This document shows positions 4,894 through 41,353 of a stretch of DNA of 64,000 bases, piece after piece. This DNA is from Candidatus Methanomethylicaceae archaeon (lineage in GTDB: Archaea > Thermoproteota > Methanomethylicia > Methanomethylicales > Methanomethylicaceae), in assembly GCA_015660995.1 (NCBI GenBank), contig JACTUC010000004.1, forward strand, positions 1 through 64,000, in the 5' to 3' direction. Numbering within the stretch: position 1 is the first letter of the stretch; each line of letters starts with the position of its first letter. Both the position numbers and the translations under genes were made by a program. Below the pieces are notes generated by a model, which was not told where the DNA came from, searched no databases, and worked only from the letters and a program-made list of their open reading frames with translations.

Positions 4894-5541
4894 ATGTATC
4901 TTGTAATTGACATCGAAACTGAAAATTTAGGCACAGATGTCATGAAAGACAATAAACGAATTCTGTCCGTCCAAATAGGTGACAATGTTAGTCAAATCTT
5001 ATACTGGGCTGATTCTAAGGATCCTAAAAGAAATTTACAAAGCGCAAAAAAAGATATATTGTCATTATTATCTGAAGGTGTCATTTTTACTGGATATAAT
5101 ATAAAGGGATTTGATACGATTTTTCTAGCTAAGTTTTTAGGCATTGTATTACCTGAATCAAATCTTCTTGACCTTAATCACCCACAAAAACTGGCTGAGC
5201 TCACTAGCATACGTAAGCCTCGCCTTGAAGAAATTTGCTTAGCTTGTGGTATTGATGTGCGCCATAAGCAACGTATGAACGAGAGGGCACAAAAGTATGC
5301 GGTAAAAGAAGAATTCAAAAAGGCAGCATCTGCCAAAGCTAACGAATTAGTGAAAGAAAAAGGCTGGTCCTTAGATTTTGCCTATAGATATTCTTTGGAC
5401 AAAATATGCCTTGGCAATGCAATTTATTATGCTTATATAGAATTTATTGATAGTGATGAGCCAAAAAATACACTCTTCTACGAGTATGCGATTGGCGATG
5501 TTATTGTTGAATACGCTCTTCTTAAGAAGATGAGATATTAA
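4894..5541 (+). CDS. DEDD-type 3'-5' exonuclease-like protein
   Basis: 215 residues with the three exonuclease motifs of the RNase H-like DEDD fold: Exo I VIDIETENLG (D6, E8), Exo II TGYNIKGFDTIFL around residues 67-79, and Exo III YEYAIGDVIVEY near the C terminus with its Asp and Tyr. This resembles the proofreading domain of family B polymerases without the polymerase. An insertion (about residues 115-165, lysine-rich helix) separates Exo II from III. It starts 57 bp from the divergent HNH gene. Probable role: nucleolytic processing of element or target nucleic acid. The substrate is unknown. Confidence 0.65.
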   Translation: MYLVIDIETENLGTDVMKDNKRILSVQIGDNVSQILYWADSKDPKRNLQSAKKDILSLLSEGVIFTGYNIKGFDTIFLAKFLGIVLPESNLLDLNHPQKLAELTSIRKPRLEEICLACGIDVRHKQRMNERAQKYAVKEEFKKAASAKANELVKEKGWSLDFAYRYSLDKICLGNAIYYAYIEFIDSDEPKNTLFYEYAIGDVIVEYALLKKMRY

Positions 5542-33864: not shown

Positions 33865-34671
33865 ATGGACGTCAAGGTTCTCAGCAATTCTGACGGGCAG
33901 CTCAAGTTCGTTGCAAAGGACGCGGATCCTACTTTTATGAACGCCATCAGGCGGATCATAATGGCTGAAGTCGCTATACCTGCCATCGAAAAGGTTTACA
34001 TTGCTGAAAATACAAGCGTCCTCTACGATGATATTATCGCCCACAGACTGGGTCTGATCCCACTGAAGGGCGGAGAGATCTTAACTCTTACTGAGAAGTG
34101 CGATTGCGACAAGAAGGGCTGTCCCAAGTGCGAGTCAATACTCACGCTCGAGGTTGAGGCGGCTGAAGACAACTTCCTAGTTTACTCGGGCCGCATGAAG
34201 GCCGAGGGCTCTGTCTTCCCGGCCAACAACAACATCCCGATCGCCGAGATGAACGCTGGCCAGAAGCTGACTCTCGAAGCCCACGCGCGTCTCGGTCTCG
34301 GGAAGAACCACGCCAAGTGGCAGCCCGTTTCTGCTTGCGCAGTCAAGTATGAGCCGATAATCGAAATAGACTCAAAGAAGTGCGACCTATGTGGCGCTTG
34401 TATCGAGGAGTGCCCAAAGAAGATCCTTAAGGAGAAGGACAACGCAATCGTCGTTACTTCACTGTGGGACTGCACTCTCTGCAAGCTTTGTGAGGAGGCA
34501 TGCCCTCCAGCGGCCATCAAGATCTCCTACGACGACAGGAACTCAGTGCTAATTGTAGAGACAACGGGCTCCCTTACCAACGACGAGCTTGTCCTAGCAG
34601 CTTGCGACGTGATGCTTCAGAAATGCGAGGAATTGAAAAGTTCAATTAAAAGTCTGCCAGAGGCCTTCTAA
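33865..34671 (+). CDS. rpoD: RNA polymerase subunit D with two 4Fe-4S sites
   Basis: 268 residues, archaeal counterpart of bacterial alpha/eukaryotic Rpb3. N-terminal dimerisation part (TFMNAIRRIIMAEVAIPAIEKVYI) forms the D-L platform. The inserted domain at about residues 170-217 has CDLCGACIEECP and CTLCKLCEEACP: two complete ferredoxin-like Cys quartets, so both clusters could form. Many archaea have lost one or both. Between S11 and L18e as usual. Confidence 0.97.
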   Translation: MDVKVLSNSDGQLKFVAKDADPTFMNAIRRIIMAEVAIPAIEKVYIAENTSVLYDDIIAHRLGLIPLKGGEILTLTEKCDCDKKGCPKCESILTLEVEAAEDNFLVYSGRMKAEGSVFPANNNIPIAEMNAGQKLTLEAHARLGLGKNHAKWQPVSACAVKYEPIIEIDSKKCDLCGACIEECPKKILKEKDNAIVVTSLWDCTLCKLCEEACPPAAIKISYDDRNSVLIVETTGSLTNDELVLAACDVMLQKCEELKSSIKSLPEAF

Positions 34672-36153: not shown

Positions 36154-36807
36154 ATGGCTACGCTCGAAACTGCCGACCTTCTGATTCCGCTGGAGGTATA
36201 CCTAGCAGCAGGCATACACATCGGGACACATGTGAAGACCAATGACATGCGCCCTTTCATATATAGGGTCAGACCCGACGGTCTGTACGTCCTTGACGTA
36301 AGGAAGACGGACGAAAGGATCAGGACTGCATCGAAGTTCGTTGCCCGCTTCAAGAGTGAGAAGGTTTTCTCCTCCTCAGCAAGGCAGTACGGCTTCAAGC
36401 CCGTCGAGAAATTCTCCTCAATCATAGGTGGGAAGCCGCTCACAGGCAGATTCATACCTGGTACTTTCACTAACCCCAAGCTCCCCAACTTTGCCGAGCC
36501 CGAGTTGCTGATCGTCACCGATCCGCGCGCAGATTGGCAGGCCATAGTCGAGGCTGCTGAAGTAGGAATCCCGACGATTGGTTTCTGCGACACTGACAAC
36601 AGGTCTCAGCTCATCGATCTCGTGATACCGATCAACAACAAGGGTAGAAAATCTCTCGCTTTGGCTTACTGGCTGATGGCAAGGCAGGTCCTCAGGGAGA
36701 GGGGCGAACTAGCCCCGACGGCAGAGCTGCCGGCTTCTCTCGACGACTTCGAATCGAAGGTTCTGGTCGCTGAGGAGGAGTATGGAGGATATGATCTTGA
36801 GGGATAG
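36154..36807 (+). CDS. rps2: Ribosomal protein uS2
   Basis: 217 residues, archaeal/eukaryotic Sa/S2 type. AAGIHIGTHVKTNDMRPFIY, DVRKTDERIRTASKFVAR, GGKPLTGRFIPGTFTNP and LIVTDPRADWQAIVEA are diagnostic. ATG follows AAGGTGGAAAC. It overlaps the Memo gene. Confidence 0.97.
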   Translation: MATLETADLLIPLEVYLAAGIHIGTHVKTNDMRPFIYRVRPDGLYVLDVRKTDERIRTASKFVARFKSEKVFSSSARQYGFKPVEKFSSIIGGKPLTGRFIPGTFTNPKLPNFAEPELLIVTDPRADWQAIVEAAEVGIPTIGFCDTDNRSQLIDLVIPINNKGRKSLALAYWLMARQVLRERGELAPTAELPASLDDFESKVLVAEEEYGGYDLEG

Positions 36808-37642
36808 ATCCCCCTCCGTTGCAGGAACTTTCTACGAATCAACACCTTCCACCATTAAAGAAAGGCTGAACTGGTGCTTCCTTCACAAAGTCGGGCCGGG
36901 GAAGCTTCCCGAGAAGCCGATCTCAAGTAGCAGGACCATACTCGCTGCAATATCACCACATGCCGGATATGCCTATTCCGGACCTGTGGCAGCGCATGGC
37001 TACTACCAGCTTTCCACAGAGCCGCAGCCCGAGATTGTGGTGATCATTGGACCGAATCATACTGGGCTAGGCGCTGGCGTATCGGCATGGGACGGCGGGG
37101 ACTGGTCCACACCCCTAGGCAAGGTTCCAGTGGATCACGAGCTGGCGAAGGCGGTGTCCCAGAGCGGGATAGCAGAGCTGGACAGCGAGGCGCACCTCCA
37201 CGAGCACTCGATAGAAGTGCAGCTTCCATTCCTCCAGTATGTCTACACCGAAGGTTTCAAGATCCTCCCCATATGCATGATGCTCCAAGACTATGTGACT
37301 GCAAAAGAACTAGGAGGCGCACTAGCTAAAGCTCTCAATGGCAGATCAAGCCTGATCATCGCTAGCACTGACTTCTCCCATTATGAGCCTTATGCGATCG
37401 CTTACCGAAAAGACGCAAAAGTCTCAGATGCCATCATTGCCATGGACTCCTTTATGGTGGGCAAGATTGTCGAGAAGGAGGACGTCAGCATGTGCGGCCC
37501 GGGTCCTGTGATGACAGCGATAATTGCTTCCAAGGAACTCGGCGCACTGACTTGCACTAAGCTCTGCTACGCAACCTCTGGTGACACCTCAGGGCCGAAG
37601 AACGAGGTAGTAGGATACGGCTCCTTCATCATGAGGTCATGA
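36782..37642 (+). CDS. Memo-family protein (AmmeMemoRadiSam-type fold)
   Basis: 286 residues. The metal-site residues of the Memo/class III extradiol dioxygenase fold are present: ISPHAGYAYSGPVAAHGYY, IGPNHTG, LHEHSIEVQLPFLQY, STDFSHYEPY and CGPGPVM. The family's biochemical role in archaea is unsettled; it is always in this position, between S2 and the isoprenoid kinases. Start ATG 36782 overlaps S2 by 26 bp. Confidence 0.9.
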   Translation: MEDMILRDRSPSVAGTFYESTPSTIKERLNWCFLHKVGPGKLPEKPISSSRTILAAISPHAGYAYSGPVAAHGYYQLSTEPQPEIVVIIGPNHTGLGAGVSAWDGGDWSTPLGKVPVDHELAKAVSQSGIAELDSEAHLHEHSIEVQLPFLQYVYTEGFKILPICMMLQDYVTAKELGGALAKALNGRSSLIIASTDFSHYEPYAIAYRKDAKVSDAIIAMDSFMVGKIVEKEDVSMCGPGPVMTAIIASKELGALTCTKLCYATSGDTSGPKNEVVGYGSFIMRS

Positions 37643-37676: not shown

Positions 37677-38519
37677 ATGATCTGTATGGTGGATGTTCAA
37701 CTTGGGATACCATTCACGATCCCAATTTTCGGCGAGGCGTTCATAAGCCTCAACAACCCCGTGGCTTTCGCCACCTTGGATTTTTGCACGCAAGTCAGGG
37801 TAAAAAACGAGAGGGCTAATCATCTGGAGCTGGTATTGAAATCACCCGCCCTGACGCGCGTCTTGATAAATCTACTCAGAAAAGAAGGGCTCAGCGGCAA
37901 GTTCAGCATCGCCTCTCAGGTCATGGACCAGCGTGAGTCGGATTTCCTTGCAACGGCCGCCCTGCTCTACATTGTAGACCCCGACAGGATTGAACCAGAG
38001 GTCCCGACTATCATGAGCAAGTTGCAGGACAGGGACTTCATCACCTTTGCGAGGGCTCTGACGTCCCTTTCTGGGGGATTCGTTGTCTGCAGAAAAGGGG
38101 AGGGCTTGGTATCACTCGAAGGCAAGATGGACGCCTTTGTACACGTCAGGCTGAGCGGCAAGCACAGGGGAGTAAAGGAGGCTCTGGCGCGGTTCTCCAA
38201 GGCTTTCCCGGAGCTGATCGGTTCGTTCTGGCATCTTATGGGTCATTTGGTACTTGATGGCGGGTCGGCGATCAGGGAGGGGAATTCTGAAAAGATGGGC
38301 AAGCTCTTGACCCTCGAGTCGGATCTGCTGTACTCTTTGGGACTTGCAGATCTGAATGATCTCCGAAGGCTGTCGCAATTGAATCCAAACTATGGTGGAA
38401 AGATCATCTGCTCGGAGGCGATGAGTGGAGCAGTTATCCTGACGCCAAAGGAAACGCTTTCCCCGCCTCATTATAACAGGTTCAAATTCTCTGCGGATGG
38501 TGTAAAGGAAATTGGATAG
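37677..38519 (+). CDS. Degenerate GHMP-kinase-like protein at the mevalonate kinase position
   Basis: 280 residues. In other archaea the gene between Memo and IPK is mevalonate kinase. Here the first motif is only partly kept (IPIFGEAFISLNNPVAFATL, residues 15-34, compare PGKVILFGEH-VVYG), the glycine/serine ATP-binding loop (PxxxGLGSSA) is absent at the equivalent region (about 80-105, IASQVMDQRESDFLATAALLY), and the C-terminal motif is altered to GGKIICSEAMSGAVILTP. I infer a GHMP-fold protein that has probably lost ATP binding. Its frame is intact, and it overlaps ipk by 8 bp. Possible roles: pseudokinase, repurposed binding protein, or an unusual mevalonate enzyme. Confidence 0.6.
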   Translation: MICMVDVQLGIPFTIPIFGEAFISLNNPVAFATLDFCTQVRVKNERANHLELVLKSPALTRVLINLLRKEGLSGKFSIASQVMDQRESDFLATAALLYIVDPDRIEPEVPTIMSKLQDRDFITFARALTSLSGGFVVCRKGEGLVSLEGKMDAFVHVRLSGKHRGVKEALARFSKAFPELIGSFWHLMGHLVLDGGSAIREGNSEKMGKLLTLESDLLYSLGLADLNDLRRLSQLNPNYGGKIICSEAMSGAVILTPKETLSPPHYNRFKFSADGVKEIG

Positions 38520-39303
38520 AATCGATTACGTGATAAAACTGGGTGGCAGCGCTATCACCAACAAGGATACCCCGCTATCCCCCAACACTGAGGTCATTGA
38601 GAGCATTGCAAAAGAGCTGGCAAGTCTCCAATGCCGCAAAAGGATCGCTCTTGTGTATGGAGGAGGTTCATACGGGCACTTCATAGCTAGAAGGTACTTG
38701 GAAAACGGGAAAATCTCGAGTCCCCAGGGGATAGCTGAGACTAGGTCTGCCATGCTCTCCCTTACGAAGAAGCTCACTGATGTCTTTCTTTCACAAGGGA
38801 TACCTATCTTCTGCATCAACCCTTCGAGCTGTTTCATCCTTAAATATGGCGAGCCTGAACCGAAGGCTTTCTTTCTGAAGCTGATTTTGAAGGCTCTTGG
38901 GGCCGGTCTAGTTCCGGCGATTGGAGGCGACATCGTCCTCAACAAAGAATGCACTGCCCGGGTACTCTCTGGCGATACCATAGCCCGCATGCTGGCTACC
39001 GAGCTGAATGCCAAAGCTCTTCTCTTCGGGAGCGATGTTGACGGTATCCTCTACAATAATAAGGTCATCAAGGAGATCAGCAAGGAAGAAATGAAGCGGA
39101 TGCAAAGCAAAGTCAGCGGTCGCAACGGAGACGTGACCGGTGGCATGGCAGGAAAACTTAAGGAAGTTGACAAATACCTCTCGCAGGGAGGCGAACTTTC
39201 AGTGATATTCAATCTGACCAAGCTTGGGGTGCTTACAAAGATCCTCAAAGGGCAGGAAGTCGAAGCCACATATATTCGGTCGCACCATAAGGGAGTTGGA
39301 TGA
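38512..39303 (+). CDS. ipk: Isopentenyl phosphate kinase
   Basis: 263 residues, TTG start at 38512. Amino-acid-kinase fold: IKLGGSAITNKD, VYGGGSYGHFIARRYL with the substrate His, and AIGGDIVLNKE. It converts isopentenyl phosphate to IPP in the archaeal mevalonate pathway that uses decarboxylation before the second phosphorylation. The RNGDVTGGMAGKLKEV end is conserved. IDI gene follows 3 bp on. Confidence 0.93.
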   Translation: MDRIDYVIKLGGSAITNKDTPLSPNTEVIESIAKELASLQCRKRIALVYGGGSYGHFIARRYLENGKISSPQGIAETRSAMLSLTKKLTDVFLSQGIPIFCINPSSCFILKYGEPEPKAFFLKLILKALGAGLVPAIGGDIVLNKECTARVLSGDTIARMLATELNAKALLFGSDVDGILYNNKVIKEISKEEMKRMQSKVSGRNGDVTGGMAGKLKEVDKYLSQGGELSVIFNLTKLGVLTKILKGQEVEATYIRSHHKGVG

Positions 39304-39306
39304 AAA

Positions 39307-40407
39307 TTGACCTCAGAAAGGAAACTCGCTCACCTTGCAATATGCAGAGACAAAGACGTGACCTGCAAGTTCAAGCCAACCCATTTCAACGATGTTGAAC
39401 TCGTTCACGTGGCAATCCCCGAGATGGACCTTAGGGACGTTGATCTCTCTGTAAAAGCATTCGGGAAGACGCTCTCTGTACCGTTGCTGATATCTGCTAT
39501 GACCGGTGGCCATCCCGAGGCGAAGAAGATCAACGAGAACCTCGCCATAGCTGCAAAGGACTTAGGCATAGGCATGTGCGTGGGCAGCCAGAGAGCTGCT
39601 CTTGAGGACCCATCCCTCGAGGACACCTTCGCCATAGTCAGGGCAGTGTCAAAAGAAATCTTGGTAGTTGGTAACATCGGAGCGCCCCAGCTCCTCTTAC
39701 CCAAAGGCTCTGAACTTGCCAAGAGAGCTGTGAATATGATCGATGCAGATGCCCTCGCGTTGCACCTTAACCCGCTACAAGAGCTTGTGCAGCCAGGTGG
39801 CGATACCAACTACAAGGGGGTGCTCAAGGCAATACGCGAACTGTCGCGGTCATTGGGGGTGCCGGTAATAGTTAAGGAGACTGGATGCGGCATATCCAAA
39901 GAAGTCGCAAAGGAACTCGTTGATACCGGAGCATACGCCATCGACGTATCTGGAGCGGGCGGAACAAGCTGGGCAGCTGTCGAATATTATAACGCGATAA
40001 TGCAGGGCAACAACTTTAATGCCGACGTAGCAGAGTCCCTTTGGGACTGGGGTATTCCTACAGCAATGAGCATCTGCGAAGTAGTCTCCCTACCCACCCC
40101 GCCCCGCGCCATTATCGCCTCGGGCGGTATTAGTGATGGTCTGGATATGGCCAAAGCCATAGCCTTAGGGGCGGACCTAGTTGGCATCGCTCGCCCCCTC
40201 CTCGTTCCAGCTTTTGCTGGCCCAGAAGAGGTGAAGGCATTGCTTCAGAGGATGATATATGAACTTAAGGCCATCTCGATGCTCACGGGTTCTAAGAAAC
40301 TTGGCGACTTAAAGCGCGCCAAGTTTGTGATCAAGGGGGAGCTTCTCAACTGGGTTGTTCAGAGAGACATTGGGGTGAAGAACGACGCTCAAAGACGAAA
40401 TAAATGA
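39307..40407 (+). CDS. fni: Type 2 isopentenyl-diphosphate delta-isomerase
   Basis: 366 residues, TTG start at 39307. FMN-dependent TIM-barrel enzyme that interconverts IPP and DMAPP. LLISAMTGGHPEAKKINENLA, HLNPLQELVQPGGDTNYKG, VIVKETGCGISKEVAKEL, SGAGGTSWAAVE and the phosphate-site IASGGISDGLDMAKAIALGA are clear. Placed between IPK and the prenyl synthase. Confidence 0.95.
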   Translation: MTSERKLAHLAICRDKDVTCKFKPTHFNDVELVHVAIPEMDLRDVDLSVKAFGKTLSVPLLISAMTGGHPEAKKINENLAIAAKDLGIGMCVGSQRAALEDPSLEDTFAIVRAVSKEILVVGNIGAPQLLLPKGSELAKRAVNMIDADALALHLNPLQELVQPGGDTNYKGVLKAIRELSRSLGVPVIVKETGCGISKEVAKELVDTGAYAIDVSGAGGTSWAAVEYYNAIMQGNNFNADVAESLWDWGIPTAMSICEVVSLPTPPRAIIASGGISDGLDMAKAIALGADLVGIARPLLVPAFAGPEEVKALLQRMIYELKAISMLTGSKKLGDLKRAKFVIKGELLNWVVQRDIGVKNDAQRRNK

Positions 40408-40444: not shown

Positions 40445-41353
40445 TTGAAGGGTAATGGTAGCCCGCTCTATAAAGCGGCCGCGCACCTGCCAATTCAGGG
40501 TGGCAAGAGGATGCGCCCCTTTCTGGTTATCAAGGCATGCCAAGCAGTCGGTGGGAAAGTTGAGGACGCGGTTCCAGCTGCCAGTGCGATAGAGCTTCTA
40601 CACAGCTTCACGCTTATCCACGACGACATAATGGACAACGATCTCCTCAGGAGGGGGGTTCCAACTGTTCATACCCTTTGGGGGGTGCCAATGGCAATTC
40701 TAGCGGGCGATCTCCTCTTCGCAGAGTCCCTCCATGTGCTGTTATCAGGCAATGGCTATCCAGAGCGGCTTAGGAGATCCGCCGAAATCCTAACAAGATC
40801 CACAATAGTGCTCTCTGAAGGTCAGTACATGGACATGTCCTTCGAATTCAGGGCCGACGTCTCGGAGGAAGAGTACCTCGATATGGTTTATAGAAAGACG
40901 GGCGCCCTATTCCAGGCAGCTGGCGAGATGGGCGGTATCATGGGTGGGGGAGATGAGCGCTCCGTAGAGCTTCTGGGCACATACGGCAGAAACATGGGGA
41001 TCGGCTTCCAAATATTCGACGATTATTTGGGCATGACATCATCTGAGAATATCTTGGGCAAGTCCGTCGGCAATGACATCAGGGAAGGCAAGAAAACTCT
41101 GATAGTCATAAGGGCGATGCAGACACCCGCGAGGGACCATCTTTTAGATATTCTGGGCAAGAGGGATGCCCCCGACTTAGAGATTGCATCCCTGCTCGAA
41201 TTGATGAAGGAGCATGGCGTGCTAGACTATGTTTTCAGCAAAGCCAAGAATTATGTTGACAAAGCCCGAACCGCAATTGCAGAGCTCCCGCAGTCTCCTA
41301 CGAGAGCGACCCTCTTGGAATTAGCGGATTACGCAATCTCCAGAGAGAAATAA
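40445..41353 (+). CDS. idsA: Geranylgeranyl/farnesyl diphosphate synthase
   Basis: 302 residues from TTG 40445. First aspartate-rich motif TLIHDDIMDNDLLRRGVPTVH, second FQIFDDYLGM, plus GGKRMRPFLVIKACQAVGG. Builds the C15/C20 chains for ether lipids. The same frame stays open back to about 40379, and the extra residues (LKDEINEIAQLVGENIRTTLK) resemble the family's normal first helix, but there is no ATG, GTG or TTG there. So the TTG start is probably too short, and the true start is non-standard or hidden by a sequence error. Confidence 0.92.
   Translation: MKGNGSPLYKAAAHLPIQGGKRMRPFLVIKACQAVGGKVEDAVPAASAIELLHSFTLIHDDIMDNDLLRRGVPTVHTLWGVPMAILAGDLLFAESLHVLLSGNGYPERLRRSAEILTRSTIVLSEGQYMDMSFEFRADVSEEEYLDMVYRKTGALFQAAGEMGGIMGGGDERSVELLGTYGRNMGIGFQIFDDYLGMTSSENILGKSVGNDIREGKKTLIVIRAMQTPARDHLLDILGKRDAPDLEIASLLELMKEHGVLDYVFSKAKNYVDKARTAIAELPQSPTRATLLELADYAISREK

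Follow-up and report, generated by a model that had tools for sequence, protein, structure and literature searches.

The window analysed here, a 64,000-nt stretch of archaeal DNA, carries the gene order rpoD-rpl18e-rpl13-rps9-rpoN-rps2-Memo-X-IPK-IDI2-prenyl synthase-gltX. Memo, isopentenyl phosphate kinase (IPK), type 2 isopentenyl-diphosphate isomerase (IDI2) and the polyprenyl synthase were named by profiles, and the names of the other flanking genes are our own reading. The first-pass annotation had placed X in the order Memo-X-IPK-IDI-prenyl synthase, and the Pfam and NCBIfam assignments bear this out:

36782..37642, + strand: Memo-family protein (PF01875, E 5.3e-79)
37677..38519, + strand: X, a degenerate protein of predicted mevalonate kinase (MVK) fold, 280 aa (ORF, predicted structure, family conservation, dN/dS)
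38512..38519, + strand: overlap between the end of X and the start of IPK, which has a TTG start (ORFs, start-codon scan)
38512..39303, + strand: IPK (NF040647, 170 bits against a cut-off of 120)
39307..40407, + strand: IDI2 (TIGR02151, 407 bits)
40445..41353, + strand: polyprenyl diphosphate synthase (PF00348, E 1.1e-71)

Judging from the family alignment, X may start at Met4 (37686), not Met1. Further upstream, the rpoD-like gene (33865-34671) encodes two ferredoxin-like CxxCxxCxxxCP motifs.

We refer to the place between Memo and IPK as the slot, and to families by codes (f1, f2 and so on), f1 being the family of the window genome. A search of f1 with X found matches in 19 of 22 genomes, 18 of them intact and one split into two frames. 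Memo lies before X and IPK after it in all 18 intact copies, and this retention argues that the order of X, IPK and their neighbours is not due to chance. In 17 of the 18, a start codon for IPK is found 7-19 bases ahead of where the X stop codon ends; in L068 the frame continues, yet our script found no start upstream of the match. One locus, L077 (G090), has a gap of 1.6 kb between Memo, which ends at about 3394, and X, which starts at 4983, unlike the other f1 members. The sole split copy, L083 (G193:C75:6178-6989), consists of two overlapping frames, owing to either a frameshift or faulty assembly of this metagenome genome. Genomes G145, G157 and G163 are not evidence for loss of X, Memo being cut by the contig end (G157, G163) or not found (G145). 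Among named records, all 15 loci with relatives of X belong to Ca. Methanomethylicota (Verstraetearchaeota), including Methanosuratincola and Methanomethylicus, and this is the lineage that carries X; the window genome belongs with them in f1. One metagenome genome in which X is found (L136) is that of Methanosuratincola petrocarbonis, a species with a cultured strain, LWZ-6 (PMC12244365).

X itself matches no Pfam family, and none of the 18 f1 members matches any at E 0.1. The NCBIfam MVK models match only residues 129-243 of X, in its C-terminal half, at E 6e-6. The scores are 26.1 bits against the TIGR00549 cut-off of 163.05 and 25.5 against the NF003036 cut-off of 403, the latter reached by no canonical MVK of the class either. 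Placed against the kinase motifs, the sequence of X reads as follows:

37710..37739, + strand: remnant of GHMP motif 1, PFTIPIFGEA, residues 12-21; it still has Gly-Glu but no longer Lys or His (hhalign with operon MVKs)
37908..37952, + strand: site of the absent ATP-binding GLGSSA loop, residues 78-92 (hhalign gap)
38046..38078, + strand: site of the absent catalytic Asp motif, residues 124-134, FARALTSLSGG; GG kept, Arg126 invariant
38091..38105, + strand: R-K-G-E-G hairpin turn, residues 139-143, fixed in f1, f2 and f5 slot proteins
38394..38429, + strand: remnant of the C-terminal motif, GGKIICSEAMSG, residues 240-251; G-x-K is retained and the glycine-rich loop is gone

From MVK to X, according to residue pairs read off the hhalign alignment, Lys becomes Thr, the His of GEH becomes Ala, and GAGGGG becomes SEAMSG; the ATP loop has dropped out, and where the catalytic Asp would lie there is either a deletion or an invariant Arg126 as replacement. 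Three of these features had been described beforehand and hold up: a weak first motif (IPFTIPIFGEA, without Lys and without His), a missing GLGSSA loop (a gap in the alignment with operon MVKs) and a glycine-poor C-terminal motif (SEAMSG in place of the glycine-rich one). Loss of the catalytic Asp motif is an addition to that list.

The same losses extend across the slot proteins. In pattern searches, the catalytic Lys pattern (P-G/A-K...GEH), the ATP loop (G-x-G-S/T-S/T-A) and the glycine-rich C-terminal pattern were each found in 33/33 canonical MVKs and in 0/34 intact slot proteins. The catalytic Asp before GG is present in all 33 canonical MVKs; slot proteins from f1, f2 and f5 lack it in every case (0/25), and those from f31, f68 and f24 show it in 1/9, by a loose pattern. 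Conversely, an R-x-G/N/S-E turn occurs in 25/25, 2/9 and only 7/33 of the f1/f2/f5 proteins, the f31/f68/f24 proteins and the canonical MVKs, respectively. In X this hairpin turn sits on the strand that follows GG. The strand of Leishmania MVK that bears Tyr167 and Arg169 contacts the mevalonate carboxylate (PMC6283576), and the turn of X lies near the equivalent strand; by our own count from the Asp, Cys138 of X, not Arg139, falls at the position of Tyr167. Across the 18 f1 sequences of X, 27 residues are invariant, among them P12, F13, P16, G19 and E20, and conservation peaks in the N-terminal strand, helix 118-132, the hairpin and helix 178-200.

The AlphaFold model of X (pLDDT 91, pTM 0.90) matches Methanosarcina MVK over residues 5-279 (Foldseek E 1.6e-13), with the best Z-score, 20.6, to 6mde (rmsd 3.9, 264 residues aligned). 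When the PDB was searched with a profile of X, all four matches below E 1e-3 were MVKs. X is predicted to have a complete GHMP/MVK fold, and the earlier view of it as a degenerate GHMP-like protein is upheld by this predicted structure. A place for the model outside the GHMP fold is ruled out by its Foldseek and Z-score matches to MVKs.

The first-pass annotation had raised two alternatives: that the kinase lies elsewhere and X has a new role, or that phosphorylation is done by X in an unusual way. The window genome has five GHMP_kinases_N matches, namely an MVK, a homoserine kinase, an archaeal shikimate kinase, an HddA-like sugar kinase and a pantoate kinase. The MVK, which is the second GHMP kinase that the annotation had envisaged, lies at C2:105537-106547, has all motifs and scores 276 bits against the TIGR00549 cut-off of 163. 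Also adjacent to one another in this genome are genes for UbiD, AcnX and AcnX-swivel; in the archaeal pathway, their products convert phosphomevalonate into isopentenyl phosphate, the substrate of IPK. Given a second MVK and genes for phosphomevalonate dehydratase and decarboxylase elsewhere in the genome, the pathway closes without X, and X is thus not needed as a kinase. All 40 genomes of the class have some match to the MVK model. Within f1, a full-length MVK is found in 19/22 genomes (the three without it are 59-78% complete), and X and a full MVK occur together in 17/22; the remaining five, 59-87% complete, are without at least one of the two.

These observations rule out X as the only mevalonate kinase. 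The operon position and the MVK fold would suit a protein that is still a mevalonate kinase with an unusual mechanism. Arguing against this, X has no counterpart of Lys9, His16, Ser135 and Asp138, through which Methanosarcina MVK binds or activates mevalonate (PMC6283576), and most f1 genomes encode a complete MVK besides. We consider continued kinase activity the least probable of the readings weighed here. Judging by the gene content, unusual phosphorylation by X appears not to be needed, and the alternative of a kinase elsewhere is supported, with the new role of X a putative one.

Beyond f1, the sister family f2 has one diverged copy of X in the same slot. An intact MVK occupies the slot in f3 (four genomes read, G252 being left out), f7 (one genome) and f9 (one genome), and for these families no second MVK-model match above 90 bits is among the matches listed. 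All six f5 genomes have a different degenerate slot protein of 269-277 residues, and five of the six have a full MVK elsewhere. The slot gene and IPK are mostly non-overlapping in f5 and in the families with intact MVK; in f5 they are a few bases apart, or about 180 bases or more in L109. By eye, a helix-helix-hairpin at residues about 105-145 of the f5 proteins (L106-L111) resembles a winged helix. Searches of the f5 proteins returned Rrf2 at E 0.025 in 1/6 (Pfam) and a histidine kinase at 0.082 in 1/6 only (NCBIfam), and X has no winged-helix domain match. In f8, represented by one genome that is 62% complete, an MVK-like slot gene is split over two contigs, lying across their ends, and a full MVK is found elsewhere. 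In this gene APLS replaces APGK and the ATP loop is broken, and it is apparently followed by gltX, not IPK. No X was seen in the three genomes of f4 and f6, where Memo is followed by IDI2 and IPK has moved away, so the function of X can be lost. Between rps2 and Memo in one f6 genome (G103) lies a 430-residue frame (L124:5347-6636, - strand) that looks by eye to be of homing-endonuclease type.

Is X a working gene? In 13 close pairs its dN/dS is 0.09-0.29 (Nei-Gojobori, our own script), compared with 0.05-0.21 for Memo and 0.10-0.25 for IPK (12 pairs, one pair being without an open IPK stretch). The widest pair, the window against L066, gives 0.286 for X with dS near saturation. X is under purifying selection and is constrained about as much as the working kinase beside it, IPK. 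Failed gene calling and a pseudogene are ruled out by these values and by open frames in 18 of the 19 f1 copies. The split copy in G193, the failure to see X in f4 and f6, and the quick change of sequence between families are what might be expected of a decaying relic heading for loss. Counter to this, the frame is open in nearly every f1 copy, dN/dS is like that of working neighbours and the predicted fold is well formed, which makes decay improbable. Alternatively, X could be a spacer or a translation-coupling device for IPK, the protein being irrelevant, as the overlap with the IPK start in 17/18 copies might suggest. Selection acts on the amino-acid sequence, however, and the 27 residues invariant over 18 sequences argue in the same direction; we find this reading more improbable still.

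Based on profile comparisons, X appears to be more like the intact operon MVK of its relatives than like the MVK of its own genome. The f1 alignment of X scored 122.5 in hhalign with the intact operon MVKs (f3, f7, f9) and 68.1 with the MVK type of its own genome, compared with at most 23.3 when columns were shuffled (40 times in these controls); such scores come from alignments of different depth and are not strictly comparable. For f5, the score with slot MVKs was 52.1 and that with the other MVK type 24.6, the latter inside the shuffle range (maximum 28.9). Given the higher scores with slot MVKs than with the other type, the slot proteins of both f1 and f5 look derived from a slot-type MVK. 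A tree of 59 rows, made by a quick method with some rows left open, splits the MVKs into two types with support of 89 and 90. A second tree included seven X rows and omitted the outgroup and five MVK rows that were long or doubled. In it the second MVK type is set apart by a branch with support of 100, and X groups with the slot-type MVKs (99). Long branches meet here, and an AU test did not reject the joining of X to the other MVK side (p 0.43).

The MVK type used by f1, f2 and f5 is also found in f30, f31, f36, f45 and f68 of the phylum, and slot proteins occur at this distance as well. In f31, the protein encoded between Memo and IPK is unrecognisable and about 256 residues long. One such protein, searched against the 59 genomes of its order (that of G052, different from the order of f1), gave nine matches, all between Memo and IPK: seven in f31, one in f68 and one in f24. 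A full MVK is found elsewhere in eight of these nine genomes, and the ninth is 71% complete. The slot proteins of f31, f68 and f24 match no Pfam or NCBIfam family beyond one chance-level match, and only M1 and R18 are invariant among the nine. The model of an f31 protein (pLDDT 90) nonetheless has MVKs as its best structural matches (Z 16.6, 249 residues aligned). The same search gave no match in the f24 genomes G020, G208, G226 and G419 or in the f68 genomes G402 and G406. In f30, IPK lies away from Memo; in f45 (G200), the locus is cut by the contig start; in f36, IPK lies beside other genes and no slot protein was seen. At L212 and L230 (G232, f31) the putative pseudo-kinase is present in the slot, and the full MVK groups with slot-type MVKs on a long branch, unlike the type of its relatives.

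Between sets of slot proteins, hhalign scores were 66.7 (f1 with f5), 50.9 (f1 with f31/f68/f24) and 83.6 (f5 with f31/f68/f24), compared with shuffled-column maxima of 21.3, 22.4 and 19.7. The f31/f68/f24 set scored 22.6 with the intact operon MVKs, no better than shuffles (to 21.4). As between a single origin of the slot proteins and repeated decay, the joined f1, f5 and f31 scores might suit the former, but f3, f7 and f9, of the same class as f1, keep an intact operon MVK. With a single origin, the slot proteins might form one old Thermoproteota family that predates the split of f1, f5 and f31. Such a family could be a dedicated allosteric partner in the use of isopentenyl phosphate, a sensor of isoprenoid intermediates in that use, or a new enzyme with a rebuilt cleft. 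We regard this broader scenario as doubtful.

Looking across the entire analysis, we favour the interpretation that X descends from an operon MVK that was retired when a second MVK took its place, and that it persists in a non-catalytic capacity, as partner or sensor of the IPK or MVK steps; we give this a probability of roughly 0.55. In this scenario, an MVK that once stood in the operon would be the ancestor of X. A different, second MVK would have arrived and taken over catalysis, freeing X, which would have been retained for a non-catalytic role that it already held or later acquired. X may act by stabilising, by tuning, or by sensing a pathway intermediate via its remodelled active-site cleft, and translational coupling would ensure that it is made in step with IPK. 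That X is a pseudoenzyme derived from MVK is very probable. Its partnership with the IPK or MVK steps, suggested circumstantially by co-translation and retention, is a more tentative proposal, at slightly less than even odds. MVKs are homodimers with a helical interface (PMC6283576), and pairing of X with MVK is therefore conceivable; the reading-frame overlap speaks instead for IPK.

Alternatively, X could be a new enzyme, with the former kinase cleft remodelled to catalyse something else, ForT being a parallel. F13, P16, D89, R126, S132 and E214 are invariant in X and, by our own reading, are without counterpart among the invariant residues of operon MVKs. The R-x-G-E turn is fixed across the f1, f2 and f5 slots (25/25), and ForT structures are among the fold matches of the f31 relative. 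Counter to this, the surrounding pathway looks complete without X, and few residues are common across the slot proteins of the different families (M1 and R18 in f31, f68 and f24), which would be unusual for an enzyme. We consider a new catalytic function unlikely.

Should X prove to be a retained partner of IPK or MVK, the synthesis of archaeal membrane lipids, for which little regulation is known, would gain a control element. If the slot proteins are an old family of partners or sensors, or a new enzyme, archaeal isoprenoid flux would have a control component that has not been described. The families also provide a natural series of loss of catalysis, from intact (f3, f7, f9) through loop traces (f8) and motifs gone (f1) to hardly recognisable (f31). 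By gene order alone X would be called a mevalonate kinase, and reconstructions based on neighbourhood could mislabel it; gene neighbourhood has been used in pathway reconstruction (PMC11052028). We found no earlier description of a degenerate MVK at the Memo-IPK slot in the open-licence literature, including passages of PMC11052028 and PMC3533463. GHMP-fold proteins that are not kinases are already known; one derived from MVK, at a mevalonate operon, was not found in print.

Compared with archaeal MVK (TIGR00549/NF003036; Methanosarcina mazei 6mde, 4hac), X has in common the whole predicted fold, the GE of motif 1, the GG after the Asp loop, the G-x-K of the last motif and, as in f3, f7 and f9, the gene position between Memo and IPK. 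It differs in being about 40-60 residues shorter than the MVKs compared with it and in the loss of four kinase motifs: catalytic Lys, ATP loop, Asp motif and glycine-rich C-terminal loop. XOL-1 of Caenorhabditis elegans is a GHMP-fold protein without ATP-binding features that acts in sex determination and has no operon or pathway link. ForT (8aoz, 8ap0, 6yqq), a GHMP-fold phosphoribosyl transferase that acts in formycin-type biosynthesis, is likewise not an ordinary kinase, and X is likened to it by fold alone. Gal3p, the yeast sensor derived from galactokinase (structures 3v2u and 3v5r), also has a GHMP fold and a non-kinase role, beside a working paralogue. Gal3p belongs to a sugar pathway and has lost far less of its active site than X; for X a regulatory role is putative.
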